Source: Gemmatimonadales bacterium (GTDB taxonomy: Bacteria; Gemmatimonadota; Glassbacteria; GWA2-58-10). From it: 60,922 nucleotides of DNA. How positions within the stretch are numbered: the first letter of the stretch is position 1; the number at the start of each line of letters is the position of its first letter. The DNA lies in the NCBI GenBank assembly GCA_024278175.1, contig JAJRTS010000038.1, positions 1 through 60,922 of the forward strand. Reading direction: 5' to 3'. Made by a program: the position numbers and the translations under genes. Under the pieces are notes generated by a model. The model made no database searches, was not told the origin of the DNA, and was given only the letters and a program-made list of their open reading frames with translations. Positions 25,279 through 36,054 of the stretch are shown piece after piece.

Positions 25279-28200
25279 GTGCGCCCGTTGTTTAAAACCC
25301 TGGTTGCCGCCGCGGCCGCCCTGCTCTGCGGCTCTCTCTCTTTCGCAGGCCCGTTGGGTTATTTCCCCCAACCTGCGCCGGATGGAATCGTTGGCGGCTG
25401 GACCTACCCGTCCGGTGCGCCCTCGCATTTCGGCCAGGGGGTGTTGAGTGCTGATAGCGCCCTCTACACTCTGACATCAGACGGCGGCCGTTTTGCCATT
25501 ACTCCCCTGAATACATACAGGCAGGTTATTCGGGTGTTTCCCGCCGATATAGACGGGGACGGATTCGGCGACCTGATTGTATCGTTCGTCAAATCCGGTG
25601 GCGTAAGACTGCTGATTGGCAATGCGGACGGCGACTCGTTCAATGTGAGTCTCCCCCCGCTGTTTTCGCCTGTGCTGGCAGCCACCGCGGTCCGTTTTGA
25701 CAGCGACAGTCTTGTGGACCTGGTGTTTGCCGACAGTACACGAATTACGGTGATGACAAGGGACGAGCCGGGCCCTGGCGGCGGCTACGAATACACGCTT
25801 TTCAAGGAAATCCCGGTCGTACAACCCGGAGCCGGCCATCCGCTGGCCTCGCTGGAGTTGTTGTCCGGAGACTATAACGGGGACTCTCGCACGGACCTGG
25901 TTTTCAACGGAGTGCTATATATCAATCAGGGCAAAGGCAGGATACTTTCCAGGGAACTGCCCGTGCCGCCCGGCGTAAAAGTACGGCTGCTCAATCTCTC
26001 GGTAGATTTCGACGGGGACAACAAGCAGGAGTTGCTCTGGTCCTCCGCCGCCTCCGCGGCTCTACCTTGCGCGGTAACAGTGGCCGACTACGACGCCAAT
26101 CTCATCTTCCGCACCGCAACAGTGTTGCAACCGGGCCTGTACGACATTACCAAGGTTTTCCGCTTCGACTCCGATGGTGACGGGCGGCTGGAACTGGGCC
26201 TCTACTCCGCCATCGATGCCCGGGCGGTGGCGTACCGGAGCACCGCCGTCGGCAGCCTGGACGCGACTTCAGCAAGTGAGCTGTTTTCGGCAGTCCCCCC
26301 CAAGGGACTTTTTATCGGTCCCCTGCCGGCCGATTCAAACGGCGAGACGCCCTGGCTGTTCCATAACGCTGTTTCTGATTCAATTTACGCCGGTTATATC
26401 CGCCGCCCCTACAGCGACGCCACCGCCGCGGTGGGTCTGGCCGACACCCTGGCAGGTCAGGCCGTGGCCGTGGGAGACTACAATGGTGACAACCTGCCGG
26501 ACATCTATGTGGTCAATTACACGGGCGACAACGCGCTCTATCGCGGCCAGCCCGATGGCACTTTCAGCCAGGTTGCGCTGGAAGCGGGAGTGGCCCAGGG
26601 CAACGACGGGATCAGTTGCGCGTGGGGCGATTTCAACAATGACGGGTTCCAGGACCTTATTGTCGCCGGGCTCTGGCTGCCGGACAAGCTGTTCTTCAAC
26701 CGCGGCGACGGGACTTTTGCCGACAGCTCCAGTATGCTGCGCTACAGCAGGGACCGCCAGCGGGCCACCAGCGTGAGCTGGGGCGATGTGAACCGTGACG
26801 GCTGGCTGGACCTGCTGTTGACCAATTACGACGGGGCCAACTGGCTGCTGACCAACCACGGTGGGCGCTATTTCGATAACAGCGGCCCGGACCTGGGTCC
26901 CACCGACGGCTTCAACCGGACCGAAAACGCGACGATTATCGACGTGGACCGCGACGGCTGGCTGGATATCGTGCTGCTCAACGACGGCGGCCCCGCCCGC
27001 TTGCTGCAGGGCAAGTCCGGCGGGCAGTTTGACGACGCCACGGCCCTCAGCGGGTTGAATCCGGAGAGCGATTTCCCCCGCTTAGGCCAGAGCCAGAGCT
27101 GGGGTGATTTCAACGGCGACGGCTACCCCGACCTGTTTATCACGCGTGCGGCGGACAAGGCCATGATGTTCCTCAATAACGGCCCGGGCGCCTCGCAGCG
27201 TTTCCAGCTCGTCTATTCGGGTAACGCCGGCGGTGGCCAGTACGCACGGATCGCCTCTGCCATCGAGGACCTCGATGGCGATGGCCGCACGGACCTGCTG
27301 ATTACGCGCACCTCGCAGTTCGGCTCCAATTCGGAAATCCCCCGCGATCAGGTTTTCCTGGGCGATGCCAGGGGTTACCCGCTAATCGATTCAGACGCCG
27401 ACGCCAGCGCCAACCTGGCCGGCGAGGCCCTGATCGAACCGCTGCGCTTCCCGCGCGAGACAAGCCTGCCGGTGGCGGGAGATTTCGACCGCGACGGGGA
27501 TATCGACGTACTCTATGTCAACTACCTGCCGGACAACGCCTCCGACCGGTTCATCAGTTCCGCTCTGCCGCTGATTTACATGCGCAACAACTCCGGGCGC
27601 GCCAACACGATTACGGTTATCCTCAAGCGCACCGACAATCGCAATCTGCCCGGCACCTCGGTCCGGCTGTTCCACAGCGGCCGCTCCTATTGTAAAACCG
27701 TCTCCGGCGGCGGCGGCAGAATCCAGAGCGGTCCGTTTCTTACTTTCAGCATGGGCGATGCTGCCGCCGCCGACAGTATGAACGTGCGCTGGCCGGACGG
27801 TGTGGAGCAGACTCTCCCCGGCCCGTTGTATCCCGGTGAACTGGAACTGATCGTTGATTTCACGCCACCCTCGATGGCACTGCTCAGCGCCCCTGAAGGC
27901 GAAGTCCGGGACGAGTTGTCAACACTGGTTACGGCATCGCCTTTCCCGTTGAGCGGAACGATCAGGGTAGAGGACAACGGCGGTCTTTCCAAGGTATCGA
28001 TGATTGTGATCCACCCCGCCACCGGCATTTCCAACACTCCGCTTTCGGCGAGCAAGACCGATGATGTATACACGTTTTCCCTCTCTACTCCGGCCCCCGG
28101 AGACAGCCTGAAGTATTTTTTTACCGCCTTCGACACCTACGGCAACTTATCACGCTTGCCCTCCGACCCATCGCTGTATTACACTCTTATCGCCAGCCAG

Positions 28201-28389
28201 GGAGTATTTGTCGGCGATATCAACGGCGACGGTAAAATTAATTCAACCGATATCCCCTCTCTGATGAAGATTTTGGAAAAGGTGAAGACGGGCGAACCCA
28301 TTACCGATACTCAGCGGAAAAGTTCTGATATTAACCGTGATGGGGAAGTTAACATTTTCGATTTATTGGCGTTGCTGAAACTATTCTGA
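25279..28389 (+). CDS. FG-GAP/VCBS repeat surface protein with ASPIC-UnbV-like and dockerin domains
   Basis: The 1036-residue secreted protein has a signal peptide (about 1-24). Many FG-GAP/VCBS beta-propeller repeats follow through to about residue 790 (for example GDYNGDNLPDIYVVNYTGDN, GDFNNDGFQDLIVAG, GDVNRDGWLDLLLTNYDGAN), each with a calcium-type DxNxDG loop. An ASPIC/UnbV-like segment comes next (GTSVRLFHSGRSYCKTVSGG... VRWPDGVEQTL), then an Ig-like region. A type I dockerin closes the protein (about 975-1036; GDINGDGKINSTDI and SDINRDGEVNIFDLLALLKLF). Family knowledge: such proteins are calcium-stabilised surface adhesion or binding modules. The start is GTG; no strong ribosome site is seen. 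The dockerin core IFDLLxLLK matches that of the M6 protease at 44802-47564. Confidence 0.82.
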   Translation: MRPLFKTLVAAAAALLCGSLSFAGPLGYFPQPAPDGIVGGWTYPSGAPSHFGQGVLSADSALYTLTSDGGRFAITPLNTYRQVIRVFPADIDGDGFGDLIVSFVKSGGVRLLIGNADGDSFNVSLPPLFSPVLAATAVRFDSDSLVDLVFADSTRITVMTRDEPGPGGGYEYTLFKEIPVVQPGAGHPLASLELLSGDYNGDSRTDLVFNGVLYINQGKGRILSRELPVPPGVKVRLLNLSVDFDGDNKQELLWSSAASAALPCAVTVADYDANLIFRTATVLQPGLYDITKVFRFDSDGDGRLELGLYSAIDARAVAYRSTAVGSLDATSASELFSAVPPKGLFIGPLPADSNGETPWLFHNAVSDSIYAGYIRRPYSDATAAVGLADTLAGQAVAVGDYNGDNLPDIYVVNYTGDNALYRGQPDGTFSQVALEAGVAQGNDGISCAWGDFNNDGFQDLIVAGLWLPDKLFFNRGDGTFADSSSMLRYSRDRQRATSVSWGDVNRDGWLDLLLTNYDGANWLLTNHGGRYFDNSGPDLGPTDGFNRTENATIIDVDRDGWLDIVLLNDGGPARLLQGKSGGQFDDATALSGLNPESDFPRLGQSQSWGDFNGDGYPDLFITRAADKAMMFLNNGPGASQRFQLVYSGNAGGGQYARIASAIEDLDGDGRTDLLITRTSQFGSNSEIPRDQVFLGDARGYPLIDSDADASANLAGEALIEPLRFPRETSLPVAGDFDRDGDIDVLYVNYLPDNASDRFISSALPLIYMRNNSGRANTITVILKRTDNRNLPGTSVRLFHSGRSYCKTVSGGGGRIQSGPFLTFSMGDAAAADSMNVRWPDGVEQTLPGPLYPGELELIVDFTPPSMALLSAPEGEVRDELSTLVTASPFPLSGTIRVEDNGGLSKVSMIVIHPATGISNTPLSASKTDDVYTFSLSTPAPGDSLKYFFTAFDTYGNLSRLPSDPSLYYTLIASQGVFVGDINGDGKINSTDIPSLMKILEKVKTGEPITDTQRKSSDINRDGEVNIFDLLALLKLF

Positions 28390-28398
28390 CCCGACCCA

Positions 28399-28980
28399 AT
28401 GCACAATCATCCCGTACTTAAATATCTGGCATTCGTGCTCGTTGTGTTGCTCTCTGCCTGCGAACAGGCCGAGCGGAACTCCTCTGAGCACCTTGTGTTC
28501 AAGGTCAACGCCGTTGAAGCAAGCGCCAGTACTCCCGGTTTCGAAACTTTCAGATCGAGCGGCAATTTCCGGATCATTTCCCCCGGCGAGACTTTCCTGC
28601 CACCCGACTCCAGCGAGCCATCGGCCGCAGCCCCTTACACTCCCACTAGGTTGTCAATCACTTTTAAGCCACAGGGCGACCTGGTACCCTCGTTGCTGCT
28701 GCCCCTAGGCTACCGGGCCACCACAAGGATCGAATTCGAAGATGGAAGCTCGATCTCGGTAAATCATACCAACGTGGCCGACTCCCTGTACGTGGCCCCG
28801 GGGGATTCACTGGGAGACACACTATACGTAGCTATCCGCGGCGAGGGCCTGGTCAGCGGTGGCGATGCGGTTTTCAACAACGCCACCGGACTGTTTTTCG
28901 AGCAAAGCACCTACCGGATAGTCAATGGGGCGTTGATCACAAACATCAGTTGCAGTTACCAGTTGATGATCGATTTTTAA
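28399..28980 (+). CDS. Unknown lipoprotein
   Basis: This 193-residue protein has a lipoprotein signal ending LLSAC (cysteine 21). The mature part is rich in Ser, Pro and beta-forming residues, without a family I recognise. It starts 9 bp after the dockerin gene, so it is probably co-transcribed. It may be an anchor or accessory for the FG-GAP protein; that is inference from position only. Confidence 0.65.
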   Translation: MHNHPVLKYLAFVLVVLLSACEQAERNSSEHLVFKVNAVEASASTPGFETFRSSGNFRIISPGETFLPPDSSEPSAAAPYTPTRLSITFKPQGDLVPSLLLPLGYRATTRIEFEDGSSISVNHTNVADSLYVAPGDSLGDTLYVAIRGEGLVSGGDAVFNNATGLFFEQSTYRIVNGALITNISCSYQLMIDF

Positions 28981-29079: not shown

Positions 29080-30447
29080 ATGCGCCAAGAACACCACATT
29101 GTTGTTTCGCGGATGGTTATCGCGTTTTTCACGCTGTTGCTCAGCGTGATTCTCCCGGCGCCGGACACTCTGCTGGCCCAGAGTTTCGGGCGCAAGAACG
29201 ACCGCAACACTTTTATCCGCAATGTCCAGTTCAATTTCAATATCCCCAGCGCGCGCGCCGTGGGCCTGGGAGGAGCGTTTGTCGCTATCGCCGATGACGC
29301 CACCGCCGGGATGGCCAACCCCGCCGGCCTGACAATCCTGACCAAGCCGGAAATATCCTCCCATTTCAAGGTCAGCCGCTTCACCCACGAGGAGAACGCG
29401 GGCACTGCCGGGGAGAACGACAAGCGACGGAAATTCCGCAACGACGTGGGCAGCCAGAGCTATCTCTCGCTGGTTTATCCTTCCGGTGATTTCTCGTTCT
29501 CGCTCTACCGCCAGGAACTGATCAACTTCGAGAGCAGTTTTACCGCGCAGGGGTTCGGCAACGTTTTCGCCAATCCGGACCTCGACCCGCAGCAGTTCAT
29601 GTTCGGCAATGACACCCGCAGCGATATTCAGGTAAACAACTGGGGTGCGGCGATGGCCTATAAGCCCAACAGGTACGTATCGGTCGGCATCTCCAGCATA
29701 GTTTCCACTCTGGAGTTCAGCTTTTACGAAAACCTGTTCCAGGAATCCGTCGACCTGAGGCGAGAGAAAGTTTTCAGCGTCAGTTCCAAAAGCAACGACA
29801 CCCGCTACAGTGTCAACCTGGGCGTAAAAGTGGAGCCTGTCAGTTACCTGACCCTGGGCGCGGTTTTCCGCAGCGGCCCGCGGTTCAGGATAACCAACAC
29901 AATCGAGGACATCGACCGCAGCGCCAAAATCCCGATAGTCCAGGCCAACCAGAATCTGGTGTTCAAGGTCCCCGACGTCTACAGCGTGGGGATAGCCCTA
30001 CGGCCCCGCAACAACCTGACCATCACGCTCGACGTGGTGCGCGTGGAGTACCACGACATTATCGCCGCGCTCGACCGCAACCTGAGCGAGGACGATGTGG
30101 CGGTGAGCATCAAGCAGTTCCCCTACTCGGCTTTTGTCGACGGCGACGGGATAGAGGACCTGGTGCTCGATAACGCCACTGAAATCCATTTCGGCGCGGA
30201 ATACTACTTTCTGTTCGGGCAATGGCTGCTGCCGGTACGGGCAGGTTTTTACACCGATCCCGCTCACGTTGTCTACACTACCGTGGATGACGAGGCGCTG
30301 CGCAGGCTGTTTCCCAGGGCCAAAGATGAAATCCACGGCACTTTCGGTTTCGGGTTCGTTTTGCAGAACAAGATCCAGCTCGACGCCGCGGTCAATCTGT
30401 CCTCGAGTGTGGTCGAGGGCCTGCTTTCGGCGGTATTCAGGTTCTAA
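29080..30447 (+). CDS. FadL/PorV-like outer-membrane barrel
   Basis: The 455-residue protein has a signal peptide (about 1-34, ending LLAQ). It shows the FadL/PorV hatch signature ARAVGLGGAFVAIADDATAGMANPAGLTIL (about residues 51-80). Long amphipathic strands follow to the C-terminal aromatic end SAVFRF. FadL-fold proteins carry hydrophobic compounds across the outer membrane, and PorV-type members assist type IX secretion. This copy is longer than the one at 7219-8340 and shares the same signature. It lies 85 bp before the TPR/ATPase gene on the same strand. Confidence 0.82.
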   Translation: MRQEHHIVVSRMVIAFFTLLLSVILPAPDTLLAQSFGRKNDRNTFIRNVQFNFNIPSARAVGLGGAFVAIADDATAGMANPAGLTILTKPEISSHFKVSRFTHEENAGTAGENDKRRKFRNDVGSQSYLSLVYPSGDFSFSLYRQELINFESSFTAQGFGNVFANPDLDPQQFMFGNDTRSDIQVNNWGAAMAYKPNRYVSVGISSIVSTLEFSFYENLFQESVDLRREKVFSVSSKSNDTRYSVNLGVKVEPVSYLTLGAVFRSGPRFRITNTIEDIDRSAKIPIVQANQNLVFKVPDVYSVGIALRPRNNLTITLDVVRVEYHDIIAALDRNLSEDDVAVSIKQFPYSAFVDGDGIEDLVLDNATEIHFGAEYYFLFGQWLLPVRAGFYTDPAHVVYTTVDDEALRRLFPRAKDEIHGTFGFGFVLQNKIQLDAAVNLSSSVVEGLLSAVFRF

Positions 30448-30532
30448 CGTGTTCTAAATTATAATAGTATGGGCATTGAGATCGTCTGGGGCCGCTCCTG
30501 CTTATGCCCGGCCGAAAATTGGTAGAGTGAAA

Positions 30533-33241
30533 ATGCGCACCATCAAAAAAACACTGTTGCTCATCGCACTGGCGACCCTTGTGCCGCAAGCCGGCCTGCT
30601 CTCGCAGTCGGTCACCTGGTACTCCGCCTACGAGAGCGCCCTTAAGGATATTGCCGCCGGCCGCTGGGAGCAAAGTGTCAAAAACCTTAGCCAGGCCCTG
30701 GAACTCAAGCCGGAGCCGGAGCTTAACGCCCGGACCTACGGCGTCTGGCGCAGCGACTATTTCCCCTACTACAACATGGGTCTGGCCCATTTCAACATGG
30801 GTGACTACCGCCGTGCTCTGGAGTTTTTTGACCGCTCTCTACAGGCCGGTGCTATCAAGCGCCAGCCCGAATTGCTCGAGCAACTCTCCAGCTACCGCCA
30901 GACCGCTGCCGCCCGTAACGAGGGCGCCGGACCGGAAAGCGAGATGGCGCGCAGAATCGAGGAAGAGCTCAACCGCGGCCTTCAACTGGAACGGCTGGGT
31001 GAGTTGGAAGAAGCTCTGGTCAAGTTCGAGAGCGTACTGACGCTGGATCCGGGTAACGCGCTGGCCACCGAGCATATGAGCGATATCCGCTCGACGCTTG
31101 CCCGTCAGGACTCGTTACGCACCCTGGAGCGCCGGCTGAACGAACTGCTGGCCGAGGGCAACAGATTATTGCAACAGGGAAACCTGCCCCAGGCCAGGGA
31201 GAGTTTCGCCGCCGCGGCCGTTATCTCCTCAAATACCCGCGCCGCCACGCTACGGGACAGTGTGGACGGCTTGCTGGCCGGAATGGCGGAGCAGAGCTTG
31301 CGCCGCGGCAGGCTGGTGGATGAGCTTATCGAGCAGGGCAAGCAGGCAAGCTCTGCCGGCAAGCACGATGATGCTCGCAGGAGCTTCGGCCGGGCGCTCA
31401 ACATCGACCCCTCGAACGCTGTGGCTTCCAGGTTGATGGCCCGGGCTGACAGCCTGCTGGCCGAGCGCCGGAAAACTGAAATGCGAGCCGAAATACTTGC
31501 CCGGGCGCGCCGCCTGGTGGAAAACGACTCCCTGCTGGCCGCCCGCGACCTGCTTGTACGCGCCCGCGAACTGGGCCGGGACTCCGCCGTGGACAGCCTG
31601 TACGGTAATATCGAGAACCGTATTACCGAAAACGAACGCCGCTTCCGCCTTCGCGACCTCCCTCAACTCGTTCTCGCCGGGCAAAGCGAAACGGAGATCA
31701 ATGTCAGCCGCGCTGAATACGCTGTCTCCGGTAACGCCATGGACAACGACGGGATCGTGCGGATCGTGCTCGAACTCAACGGCGGCTCCAGCGAGATTTA
31801 CCGCCACCAGGGCACGGGAGAGCCGCCGGTACAGCGGGATTTCGAGCAGGTCGTCGAGTTGAGCCCCGGCGCCAACCGGCTCAAGCTTACCGTGTTCGAC
31901 GGGCGCGGCAACAAGGCGTCCACCGAAAAGCTGCTGGTTTACACTCCCCCGCTCTGGAAGCTGCCGTTGGTGCGCTACCTGCTGGTGCTGAGTATCCTGC
32001 TCGTGGCCGCGGGCTATTATTACCTCCGGCGCAACACGTTCCACCTGCTGCTTAACAAACTGCGGCGGCGGCCGTTTACGCTGATCTCTCCCAACCCGTT
32101 TATTGTCGGCAACCCGATCCGCAGCCGGGAAATGTTTTTCGGGCGGGAGGATGATTTCCGTTTCGTCAAGAACAAGGTGGACAACGAAAAATACGGCTCG
32201 CTGATCGTCCTGTTCGGCGAGAGACGCACGGGCAAAACCAGCGTGCTCTACCAGATACTCGGCGGACGGCTGGGCCCCAGATACCTGCCCGTGTTCCTGG
32301 ACATGCAGGCGATGGCGATCAACAACGACAATGAATTCCTTGGCCGGATGGCCGAAATCACGGCCGATCGGTTGGGGGCGCGCCTGGCAGAGGTGGACCT
32401 CTCGGTGTTCGATGACCGTTCACGCAACCCCTACCCCCTGTTCGAGAAATTTATCGACAGGGCGCTCGAAGAGATCGGCGAGGACAGGCTGCTGTTCCTG
32501 GTGGACGAGTACGAGTTGATCGAGGACAAGGTGGCCGACGGTAAGATCCGCAAGGAAATCTTCCACTTCCTCAGCGGCCTGGTGGAGCACAAAACCGGCC
32601 TGTTCCTGATATTCGCCGGCAACCATCGTCTCCAGGACCGCCGCCACAGTTTCTGGGAGCCCCTGCTCCAGCGCTGCGACTATCGCAATATCAGCTACCT
32701 GACACCCAACGACACCCGCCGGCTGATCCAGGAACCGGTGCGCGGCAAGGTGTTCTTTTTCGGCACCACGGTGCGTGACATCATGCGCCTGACCGCCGGC
32801 CAGCCGTTTTATACCCAGCTCGTCTGCCGCAACATGGTGGAGCTGCTTAACGCCGAGCGGCGCAATTACTTCTACGAGGCGGATATCGCCGAGGTTGTCC
32901 GCGAAATTATCGACAACCCGCCACCGCAGTTGATCTATTTCTGGGCCGGGATGGAGGCAGTGGAAAAACTTGTCCTGAGCACCGTGGCCGAGGCCGCGCG
33001 CGGCGTCAACAGCTTCCCCGATCTGGGCGAGATGAAAAATGCGCTGAAAAAATTCTCGGTAACGCTGCCGGAAAGCGACCTTAAAGAGGTTTGCGAACAG
33101 ATGACCGCCAGCGAGGTGCTGGAACGCGGCCCTAGGGAAAGCTACCGTTTCCGCATGGACCTCTACAGGCTCTGGATCCGGGAGGAGCATAACCTGTACA
33201 ATATCGCCCGGGAATTCGACCGGGAAACGATCGCCCGTTAA
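30533..33241 (+). CDS. TPR / Ig-like / transmembrane / STAND-type ATPase protein
   Basis: This 902-residue protein has an unusual layout. Residues 1-24 are a signal peptide or anchor. Residues about 30-365 are TPR helices with coiled character (YYNMGLAHFNMGDYRRALEFFDRSL; ALVKFESVLTLDPGNALA; ARRSFGRALNIDPSNAVA). Residues about 378-470 are an Ig/cadherin-like beta domain. A single transmembrane helix covers about 478-497. Residues about 515-902 are an AAA/STAND ATPase with FFGRED (535-540), Walker A GERRTGKT (562-569), Walker B LLFLVDE (653-659) and a winged-helix-like tail. Predicted topology: sensor in the periplasm, ATPase in the cytosol. The start at 30533 has GGTAGAG upstream and avoids a non-signal leader. 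I do not know a described family with this full order. Confidence 0.75.
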   Translation: MRTIKKTLLLIALATLVPQAGLLSQSVTWYSAYESALKDIAAGRWEQSVKNLSQALELKPEPELNARTYGVWRSDYFPYYNMGLAHFNMGDYRRALEFFDRSLQAGAIKRQPELLEQLSSYRQTAAARNEGAGPESEMARRIEEELNRGLQLERLGELEEALVKFESVLTLDPGNALATEHMSDIRSTLARQDSLRTLERRLNELLAEGNRLLQQGNLPQARESFAAAAVISSNTRAATLRDSVDGLLAGMAEQSLRRGRLVDELIEQGKQASSAGKHDDARRSFGRALNIDPSNAVASRLMARADSLLAERRKTEMRAEILARARRLVENDSLLAARDLLVRARELGRDSAVDSLYGNIENRITENERRFRLRDLPQLVLAGQSETEINVSRAEYAVSGNAMDNDGIVRIVLELNGGSSEIYRHQGTGEPPVQRDFEQVVELSPGANRLKLTVFDGRGNKASTEKLLVYTPPLWKLPLVRYLLVLSILLVAAGYYYLRRNTFHLLLNKLRRRPFTLISPNPFIVGNPIRSREMFFGREDDFRFVKNKVDNEKYGSLIVLFGERRTGKTSVLYQILGGRLGPRYLPVFLDMQAMAINNDNEFLGRMAEITADRLGARLAEVDLSVFDDRSRNPYPLFEKFIDRALEEIGEDRLLFLVDEYELIEDKVADGKIRKEIFHFLSGLVEHKTGLFLIFAGNHRLQDRRHSFWEPLLQRCDYRNISYLTPNDTRRLIQEPVRGKVFFFGTTVRDIMRLTAGQPFYTQLVCRNMVELLNAERRNYFYEADIAEVVREIIDNPPPQLIYFWAGMEAVEKLVLSTVAEAARGVNSFPDLGEMKNALKKFSVTLPESDLKEVCEQMTASEVLERGPRESYRFRMDLYRLWIREEHNLYNIAREFDRETIAR

Positions 33242-33264: not shown

Positions 33265-33993
33265 ATGAATAATCCCTTACGGCTGGCTGTCGCGCTGCTG
33301 CTGGCCGCGGCATTGGCCGCTCCGCTTTGCGCCCGGCCGGCTCTGAACGTAATCGTGTTCGCCGACGGCTACCATTACGGCCCGGCCGGCCATGAGCTGG
33401 CCCGCTCACTTAACGACAGCACGGGTTCCCCGGCTGTAAGGGCCGATTTCGCCAATACGGAAAATATCCTGGCCCCCGGTGCGCTAGGTCGCTACGACGT
33501 GCTGGTGCTGTTCAACCACAACGATATCACCCGCACCCACGAGAAAAGAATTACCGATTTCGTCCGCGAAGGCGGCGGCTTGGTTGCCCTGCACCACGTA
33601 ATCAACAAGGCCAACGGCAACCCCGAGCTGACCCGGCTGGTGGGCGGGTTCTACAACGTGGACGACGGGATGATCGGCCACCGGGATTTCAATATCGTCC
33701 GGATAGAGGGCGCAGAGCACCCGATCCTGGAAGGCGTCCCGGAGAAATTCAGGGTCCGCGACGACCAGGACTTCCGCATCCGGTTTTACCCCGGCCAGCA
33801 GATCCAGCGTCTGCTCAGTTGCGATATCGACGATAACGGCGAGCAGAACGACTGCGGCTGGACCCGCACCGAGGGCGCGGGACGCGTGGTGTTTCTCAGT
33901 CCCGGCGACCCGGTGGACCTCAATCCTTTTGTCAACAACGTGCCGCTGCACAAGCTGATTGTTAACTCGATCCGCTGGGCTGCCGGCAACTGA
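33265..33993 (+). CDS. Secreted ThuA-like (class I glutamine amidotransferase fold) protein
   Basis: The 242-residue protein has a signal peptide (about 1-24) and then a ThuA domain: LNVIVFADGYHYGPAGHELARSL, YDVLVLFNHND, ITDFVREGGGLVALHHVINK, GAEHPILEGVPEKFRVRDDQDF and GAGRVVFLSPGD. ThuA proteins are linked to sugar metabolism (trehalose utilisation) but the reaction is not settled. There is no catalytic Cys-His-Glu triad of the amidotransferase kind. The ATG at 33265 has a perfect AGGAGG at 33254-33259. It is placed 23 bp after one STAND ATPase gene and 21 bp before another, so it is very likely co-expressed with both. Confidence 0.8.
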   Translation: MNNPLRLAVALLLAAALAAPLCARPALNVIVFADGYHYGPAGHELARSLNDSTGSPAVRADFANTENILAPGALGRYDVLVLFNHNDITRTHEKRITDFVREGGGLVALHHVINKANGNPELTRLVGGFYNVDDGMIGHRDFNIVRIEGAEHPILEGVPEKFRVRDDQDFRIRFYPGQQIQRLLSCDIDDNGEQNDCGWTRTEGAGRVVFLSPGDPVDLNPFVNNVPLHKLIVNSIRWAAGN

Positions 33994-34014: not shown

Positions 34015-36054
34015 ATGCTTTGCCCCGAATGTAACGCCGAAAATCCCAACAGTAACTGGTACTGCGATAATTGCGGATCCAATCTCCGTGAAACCGAGCC
34101 TGCCCGGCCGCAACGTCAATCCGCGCCGGAAGGGCCGGCTGATGCCGGGACTGCCACATCAACCACGTTTGCCGGACGCTACCGGGGCCTGGAAAAAATC
34201 GGCGACGGGGCGATGGCCACTGTCTACCGGGCGATGGATACGGAGCTGGACGAGGTGGTGGCGCTCAAGGTGCTTAAAAGCGATTTTGCCGGCGACGAGG
34301 ACCATATCGCCCGTTTCAAGCGCGAGATCGCCCTGGCCCGCTCGATCACTCATCCCAACGTCTACCGGATCTACGATATCGGGGCCAGCGGCAAGGTGCA
34401 GTTTATCAGCATGGAGTATATCGACGGGACCGAGCTCAAGAAGCTGATCACCTCCGGCGCCAGACCCTCGATTGAGGAGGGCCTGGAAATCCTTCGGCAA
34501 ATCTGCCTGGCGCTGCGGCAGGCGCACCTCAAGGGCATCATCCATCGAGATCTGAAACCCCACAACATCATGGTGGAAAACGGCACCGGCCGTTGCGTGG
34601 TGATGGATTTCGGGATCGCTATCGGCGAGCATTCCAGTTCGATCACCCAGGCCGGCGCGTTTGTCGGCACGCCCGAGTACATCTCTCCCGAACAGGCCGG
34701 CAGCCGGGCACTGGACCACACAACGGATATCTATTCGCTGGGCGTTATCATGTACGAACTGTTCACCGGCAGGCTCCCGTTCGGCCCCGGCCGCCCGCTG
34801 GCGGTGGCCATGCAGCATATCAACGAAACTCCCGTGGCGCCGTCGCGGCACAATCCCGAGATCGGCCGCGCCCTGGAGCGAATCGTGCTCAAGGCGATGC
34901 ACAAGGACCCGCTGAGGCGCTACCGCGATGTGAGCGCCCTGCTGGAGGATATCGAATCCCTGCTCCGCGGCGATAAGGACGAGCAGGACGAGACCCGGGG
35001 CGTTCCCGCCACCCACGTAAACCCCTACCTGAACCGCAACATGATCCGTGACAAGAAGCTTTTCCACGGCCGGCGCAAGGAAGTGGCGACAATATTTTCG
35101 CGGATCGGCGCGGCGCGGCCGCAGTCGGTTTCGATTGTCGGCGAGCGGCGGATCGGCAAGAGCAGCCTGCTTTACTTTATCAAAGATCCCGGCAACCGCT
35201 TAAGTTATCTCGACGAATCCACCGGCTACATTTTCCTCTTCATGGACTTCCAGGAGAAACGGCGCGGGACTGCCGACGAGTTTTTCGAATCCCTGTTCGA
35301 CCTGCTCCGCCAGGAGGCCTGCGACAAGCTGGGTGAGTTGCCGGAACCCGGTTACGACGGATTCAAGCAAGTCTGTGAGCGGATCGACGCGGAGGGGATG
35401 AAGCTGATCATGTTGTTCGACGAGTTCGAGGCCATCACCAAGAATCGAAATTTCGAGCCGGAGTTTTTCGCATTCCTGCGCTCGCTGGCCAACAACTATA
35501 ACGTGGCCTATGTAACCAGCTCGGTAAAAAACCTTCAGGAGATGTGCCACAACCGCGAGATCAGCGACTCGCCGTTCTTCAACATTTTCTCCAACCTCAA
35601 CCTCGGCCCGTTCAACCTTCAGGAGGCCCGCAAATTCGTCGCCGAACCCAGCAGGGAATGCGGGATTCCGCTGGAGGAGAATTTAGAGACGATTGTGGAG
35701 CTGGGAGGACATTTCCAGTTCTACATGGCGATCGCCTGCTCGATCCTGTTCGATTTCGATTTCGCCCGGGCGGATTCCCGCAAGACAGTGCTGGAAAATG
35801 TGGAAGAACAGTTCCTGGAGGAAGCGGGTATGCACTTTCAGTTCATTATCGAGAGCCTGGGACCGGACGAACTCAGGGTCTGCCACAAGCTCATCGAGGG
35901 AGTGCCGCTCGATTCGATTGACCGTTTCGTGGTAAAAACCCTGCTCCGCCGCGGATACCTTATCCCCGGCGACAGCGACCGCGAGTACAGGCTGTTTTCC
36001 CGCACCCTGGAGCGGATGATCGAAGAACAGAGTCAGAAACGGGAAACGTCTTAA
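34015..36054 (+). CDS. Zinc-ribbon Ser/Thr kinase fused to a STAND-type ATPase
   Basis: This 679-residue protein has three parts. Residues 1-25 are a zinc ribbon (C3, C6, C17, C20). Residues about 55-318 are a complete Hanks-type kinase: glycine loop IGDGAMATVYRA (62-73), lysine 85, HRDLKPHN (177-184), DFG (198-200) and GTPEYISPEQ (218-227). Residues about 335-679 are an ATPase with FHGRRKE (350-356), Walker A GERRIGKS (376-383) and Walker B IMLFDE (465-470). A helical and winged-helix tail follows. There is no transmembrane helix, so it is cytosolic. The ATPase half resembles that of the protein at 30533-33241 in order and motifs. It probably integrates a signal through nucleotide-driven assembly and phosphorylation; substrates are unknown. 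Confidence 0.85.
   Translation: MLCPECNAENPNSNWYCDNCGSNLRETEPARPQRQSAPEGPADAGTATSTTFAGRYRGLEKIGDGAMATVYRAMDTELDEVVALKVLKSDFAGDEDHIARFKREIALARSITHPNVYRIYDIGASGKVQFISMEYIDGTELKKLITSGARPSIEEGLEILRQICLALRQAHLKGIIHRDLKPHNIMVENGTGRCVVMDFGIAIGEHSSSITQAGAFVGTPEYISPEQAGSRALDHTTDIYSLGVIMYELFTGRLPFGPGRPLAVAMQHINETPVAPSRHNPEIGRALERIVLKAMHKDPLRRYRDVSALLEDIESLLRGDKDEQDETRGVPATHVNPYLNRNMIRDKKLFHGRRKEVATIFSRIGAARPQSVSIVGERRIGKSSLLYFIKDPGNRLSYLDESTGYIFLFMDFQEKRRGTADEFFESLFDLLRQEACDKLGELPEPGYDGFKQVCERIDAEGMKLIMLFDEFEAITKNRNFEPEFFAFLRSLANNYNVAYVTSSVKNLQEMCHNREISDSPFFNIFSNLNLGPFNLQEARKFVAEPSRECGIPLEENLETIVELGGHFQFYMAIACSILFDFDFARADSRKTVLENVEEQFLEEAGMHFQFIIESLGPDELRVCHKLIEGVPLDSIDRFVVKTLLRRGYLIPGDSDREYRLFSRTLERMIEEQSQKRETS

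Follow-up and report, generated by a model that had tools for sequence, protein, structure and literature searches.

The putative receptor gene and its neighbours

The window, by which we mean the whole 60,922-nucleotide stretch analyzed, comes from a 4.18-Mb genome in 113 contigs. On its forward strand, an ATG at 30533 and a stop codon at 33241 delimit a CDS (30533..33241) that reads as a single 902-aa protein, termed the TPR-TM-STAND receptor herein. An alternative TTG start at 30476, ahead of a good signal peptide, would give a longer ORF. Measured against a 70%-identical orthologue from a congener, the ATPase had a dN/dS (NG86) of ~0.07 and the TPR region one of ~0.38. This purifying selection, together with the open frame and the orthologues, indicates that the ORF is truly coding.

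The gene run is headed by the gene for an FG-GAP/UnbV-ASPIC protein (25279-28389) whose C-terminal domain is dockerin-like. Upstream of the receptor, on the forward strand, are a small lipoprotein gene with an LSAC lipobox (28399..28980) and, after it, a gene for an outer-membrane FadL/PorV-like barrel (29080..30447; PF03349, E = 9e-13). About 20 bases downstream of the receptor lies a gene for an exported ThuA-family protein with a signal-peptide-like N-terminus (33265..33993, forward strand; PF06283, E = 8.4e-17), and 21 bases further on, 774 bases downstream of the receptor gene, starts a gene encoding a zinc ribbon, a Ser/Thr kinase and an nSTAND2 domain (34015..36054, forward strand; PF00069, E = 1.6e-47; PF20702, E = 3.3e-48). 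Genes for CdaA, YbbR and VanZ follow 259 bases past the kinase gene. Promoter and terminator scans gave chance-level matches only. The nSTAND2 domain of the kinase is the sole one in the genome and has an intact P-loop (GERRIGKSS); it is homologous to the receptor STAND (hhalign P 97.5, E = 6.5e-12), the two having NP..xNxIRx4FxGR and GERRxGK in common.

The order barrel-receptor-ThuA-kinase was kept in all six genomes of the window's family (contigs break within the receptor gene in two), and the lipoprotein gene adjoins the barrel in those where the region is visible. Colinearity spans the whole compared stretch with the congener and, for other genera, most of their short contigs. Because gene order is conserved well beyond the gene run, the adjacency of receptor and kinase provides moderate evidence only for a connection between them.

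Domain architecture and predicted topology of the putative receptor

The preliminary description had read the protein as a signal peptide, TPR helices, an Ig-like domain, one membrane helix, a P-loop ATPase and a winged-helix-like tail. This architecture is well supported: the order was recovered from TPR matches in Pfam, a membrane helix in the hydropathy profile, AlphaFold2 strands forming a predicted beta-sandwich, and the Walker motifs.

Topology and signal peptide were judged from hydropathy, charge and orthologue conservation. The N-terminus has a charged n-region and then a hydrophobic core, and the predicted signal peptide (30533..30604, forward strand, as are all receptor features below) would be cleaved before Q25. 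A small residue (S/A/G/T) precedes the conserved Q in all orthologues (LLS/QS, LRA/QS, LHG/QD, AYT/QE and LAA/QD, the slash marking the putative cut), whereas the first 25 residues otherwise show 12-28% identity. Hydropathy revealed only one internal membrane helix, at residues 477-495 (31961..32017), matched by an AlphaFold2 helix at 478-495. A strongly basic stretch, YYYLRRNTFHLLLNKLRRR, comes directly after it; this positive-inside charge predicts a cytosolic C-terminus. Within the limits of sequence evidence, the proposed export of the TPR region held up, on the conserved cleavage-like site and the positive-inside helix. That the TPR region is instead cytosolic, the N-terminal hydrophobic stretch not being a functional signal peptide, is scarcely credible: TPR proteins are frequently cytosolic and the signal-peptide core of the window protein falls below a simple hydropathy cut-off, but the conserved cleavage-like context, the strong positive charge past the second hydrophobic helix, the lack of any cysteine in the 450-residue N-terminal part and the signal-peptide-bearing propeller ectodomain carried by a homologous TM-STAND unit (see below) all speak against it.

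The predicted periplasmic arm begins with a TPR/helical region at residues 28-380 (30614..31672), with Pfam TPRs at ~41-305 (PF07719, E = 2.7e-22) and a conserved block, KPxPELNARTYGVW, near its N-terminus. Autocorrelation of the window protein was best at a lag of 60 residues, a value reached by 2 of 500 shuffles, and lags of 60, 61 and 121 lead likewise in the orthologues. Each 60-residue unit consists of a TPR hairpin plus ~26 extra helical residues, a super-repeat that suggests a long rod. The full-length AlphaFold2 model, built from a shallow three-row alignment (the window protein, L027 and L028), had a mean pLDDT of 63 and displayed alternating short and long helices over residues 28-380 (helix pLDDT mostly 70-92), with the ATPase half poorly modelled; Foldseek with this model returned generic TPR structures only. 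The Ig-like domain of the preliminary description (residues 388-470; 31694..31942) survives as a predicted beta-sandwich of seven model strands, but without a Pfam match above the cut-off, its orthologues giving weak Big_7/Glucodextran_B matches.

Past the membrane helix, a juxtamembrane motif, RRRPFxxIxPNPFIVGNPIRSREMFFGRE (32027..32143), leads into a STAND-type P-loop ATPase at residues 536-765 (32138..32827). Pfam matches at residues 535-758 were both below the cut-off (AAA_22, 26.7 bits against 27; ATPase_2, 25.6 against 33.2), and the orthologue L014 exceeds that for ATPase_2 with 35.3. Walker A is GERRTGKTS (residues 562-570; 32216..32242) and Walker B is LLFLVDEYE (residues 653-661; 32489..32515), with D and E invariant. 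Loss of the ATPase site in homologues had been named beforehand as the finding that would count against the proposal, and the site was intact in all five readable members (the window protein and four orthologues), as GERR[AT]GKTS and [LI]LxLxDEYELIE; in the sixth family genome the gene is present as fragments only.

A helical, winged-helix-like tail at residues 766-902 (32828..33238), ending YRFRMDLYRLWIREEHNL, was delimited by alignment and by a profile match to the tail of the propeller receptor described below. In a model of residues 500-902, for which kinase STANDs were added to the alignment (mean pLDDT 56.8), the Rossmann core reached block means of 70-90 mid-domain and the tail was weak. 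Foldseek matched this model to Orc1/Cdc6, the archaeal ATPase 2qen and a maltose-system STAND complex (E from 1e-5 to 3e-4, TM ~0.4). On the strength of the core, the weak tail and these matches, membership of the STAND/ORC class is likely and a winged helix plausible; the earlier assignment of the tail keeps a plausible helix order, but at low model confidence (pLDDT under 60). Cdc6/Orc1, the archaeal ATPase_2 protein (2qen) and MalT resemble the receptor in their P-loop core, Walker B DE, GxP-type motif (RLTAGQPFYTQL) and helical tail, but they are cytosolic, and no solved match combines a membrane helix with an exported TPR arm. Profile searches of solved structures gave nothing useful for the receptor.

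STAND ATPases are known as cytosolic switches in immunity, cell death and transcription. The receptor did not match PF20702 (nSTAND2), and no catalytic output domain follows its STAND module. With histidine-kinase receptors it has in common the overall plan of a periplasmic sensor, a membrane helix and a cytosolic output; however, HisKA and HATPase were absent in Pfam and NCBIfam scans, and in place of a histidine-kinase domain there are an ATPase switch and a separate Ser/Thr kinase. A histidine kinase was accordingly rejected for lack of supporting domains.

Distribution and relatives

Profiles of the TM-STAND and TPR-Ig halves were searched against 395 sampled genomes of the phylum. A family-wide domain search of this kind had been suggested in advance, and the TPR-TM-STAND combination was found in all six genomes of the window's family (Candidatus Glassbacteria) but in none of the 389 others. 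Each of the six carries one copy of the receptor gene, conserved vertically and in colinear order. A search beyond the phylum covered close relatives and found two Glassbacteria loci; among named relatives, two metagenome-assembled Candidatus Glassbacteria, MFIX01000188.1 (53%) and JAFGTO010000324.1 (51%), come nearest. Compared with the three full orthologues, the ATPase is 91/79/72% and the juxtamembrane segment 91/83/71% identical; the TPR region reaches 55/34/34% and the Ig-like domain 51/36/37%, a pattern that fits a sensor diverging while the switch stays fixed. Because dN/dS shows the same contrast, we consider the switch strongly constrained and the sensor to be drifting faster.

The TM-STAND unit recurs in a second receptor of the same genome, encoded on a different contig (L056 6081-10877; G000:C74, ~105080-109876). 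This 1598-aa protein consists of a signal peptide, a Reg_prop propeller, a membrane helix, a STAND module, GAF and SpoIIE, and its gene is followed by GAF-PAS-cyclase and then STAS genes. It resembles the TPR receptor in having an exported sensor, one membrane helix, the juxtamembrane motif and a homologous STAND; the TM-juxtamembrane-STAND units align over 362 columns (hhalign E = 3.5e-22) with an invariant signature, R-x-R-x-F...PNPF...P...E...GR, and the juxtamembrane motif is also partly present in the kinase. It differs in its propeller sensor, its own GAF and SpoIIE output, its cyclase/STAS neighbours and its Walker A, in which the lysine is replaced by M, M, V, L and S in the five propeller receptors read. 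Judged by these residues the propeller-receptor unit is a pseudo-STAND with an eroded Walker A, which suggests that in this branch the TM-STAND unit works without the usual ATP binding. By hhalign, the receptor STAND is nearer to the propeller-receptor STAND than to the kinase STAND. Both receptor types occur in five of the six family genomes, the sixth (84% complete) showing the TPR type alone. Since the unit recurs in this way it can be regarded as a re-used transmembrane relay, for which the propeller receptor, beside cyclase and STAS genes, provides a clear transmembrane signalling context.

Outside the family, each half had one relative in the phylum. For the sensor half this was an exported TPR-Ig-caspase (Peptidase_C14) protein in genome G083 (L049 1-2079, reverse strand), which has a homologous N-terminal TPR block, xARTYGxRxxxYFPxxYLG, and an Ig domain but, in the part seen, a caspase-like domain in place of TM-STAND. 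For the ATPase half it was a soluble protein of genome G151 that joins a STAND to a type I specificity-like part, and one plasmid match, Acinetobacter NZ_MH220285.1, encodes a type I methylase-specificity-STAND fusion. These fusions (L067 2310-7836; L035 2-3720), the closest soluble ATPase relatives found, each directly precede a second STAND-type gene, and the second genes are 32% identical to one another. Like the receptor they have NPxIVGNPI..MxFGRE, an RRTGKTS-like Walker A and paired STAND genes; unlike it they are cytosolic, fused to DNA methylase/specificity parts and set in a restriction-modification context.

The preliminary description had not recognized the architecture as a described family, and no description was found in the open-licence literature searched. 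Every part of the receptor is of a known kind; the combination is undescribed in the papers searched. Membrane-linked STAND systems do have precedent, because a NACHT/lectin protein has been predicted to be periplasmic (PMC10907252).

A proposed signalling role and its alternatives

We propose, at about even confidence, that this protein is a type I receptor and that it controls, through its STAND switch, the STAND kinase encoded nearby. The receptor would be a type I single-pass inner-membrane protein whose exported TPR/Ig arm binds or senses something periplasmic, possibly the barrel, lipoprotein or ThuA protein encoded next to it. The signal would cross through the one membrane helix and the highly conserved juxtamembrane segment to the STAND ATPase in the cytosol, where a change of nucleotide state would in turn alter how the ATPase assembles. 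The receptor would then most likely act on the zinc-ribbon/Ser-Thr kinase/nSTAND2 protein through STAND-STAND contacts, the kinase being gathered or activated at the membrane. We infer the receptor-kinase link, as we do the ligand, assembly, kinase contact and output. The pairing is supported by the kinase being a neighbour in six genomes, by the homology of the two STANDs and by the recurrence of paired STAND genes; against it, the receptor is not an nSTAND2 protein, its STAND lies nearer to that of the propeller receptor, the ATPase is weakly modelled and the intervening ThuA gene is unaccounted for. A signalling role draws its strongest support from two features absent from the preliminary description, the propeller receptor and the STAND kinase, which also suggest a partner.

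Two-gene nSTAND2 operons (PF20702) are predicted to form hetero-multimers with one partner eroded, and in the mobile nSTAND2 conflict systems the eroded STAND carries a fused effector, for instance GT4 or HEPN (PMC8195603). The Glassbacteria run likewise has two STAND genes, the second an nSTAND2 kinase, but its receptor is not nSTAND2, both P-loops are intact, a ThuA gene lies between, there is no GT4/HEPN effector, and the run is not mobile, being colinear in six genomes of a single family. By analogy, then, receptor and STAND kinase in one run would fit the nSTAND2 pairing pattern without its other defining features. At clearly lower confidence, TM-STAND may be an exchangeable transmembrane module that takes either TPR-Ig or propeller sensors, with the kinase and the phosphatase, whose related STANDs are active in one and eroded in the other, entering hetero-assemblies beneath the membrane that set the phosphorylation of shared targets.

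An alternative partner for the intact STAND of the TPR receptor is the eroded STAND of the propeller-SpoIIE receptor, which would make an active/inactive pair with its output in the phosphatase-STAS branch. We think this unlikely. The two TM-STAND units match each other more closely than either matches the kinase STAND, the loss of the Walker A lysine in five propeller receptors resembles nSTAND2 active/inactive pairs (PMC8195603), and both types coexist in five of six genomes; yet the two genes lie on different contigs, the 84%-complete sixth genome has the TPR type alone, and the propeller receptor comes with a sensor and an output of its own.

The constant presence of the FadL/PorV-like barrel gene next to the receptor (6/6 genomes), with the lipoprotein gene where visible, would also suit an energized envelope tether, in which the long-helix TPR rod reaches the outer-membrane barrel and ATP turnover powers or positions export or assembly. 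Periplasmic TPRs are indeed frequent in secretion machinery. STAND ATPases, however, are switches rather than motors, TM-STAND otherwise occurs in a plainly signalling setting, where its ATP site is eroded, and a kinase gene lies within the run, so that we hold a tether to be quite improbable.

We also weighed an NLR-like, membrane-anchored defence receptor that senses phage or envelope damage and triggers cell death, a reading that appears very improbable. Conflict systems often contain STAND ATPases with TPRs (PMC7159879, PMC8195603), and the soluble relatives that came closest carry type I restriction-modification parts as fusions. But PADLOC had no family for the receptor, the ThuA protein or the barrel (the kinase matched PADLOC models over its kinase domain only), the receptor has no toxic effector domain, phage records gave no match to it, and its single-copy, vertical, colinear inheritance in six genomes is unlike that of mobile defence islands. 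Defence-island and phage origins were rejected for want of supporting domains and of PADLOC or phage matches. One viral-contig match (L066) was discarded as a weak chance match; it sits at the very end of a phage contig, which also carries DNA polymerase and RecA-like genes.

If the type I receptor reading is right, envelope signals in this family would be carried inside by an ATPase and not by a histidine kinase. An exchangeable TM-STAND module, if true, would add a further class of transmembrane signalling to those of histidine kinases and receptor Ser/Thr kinases, and the occurrence of active and eroded TM-STAND units in one genome allows the contribution of ATP binding to be probed by a natural comparison.
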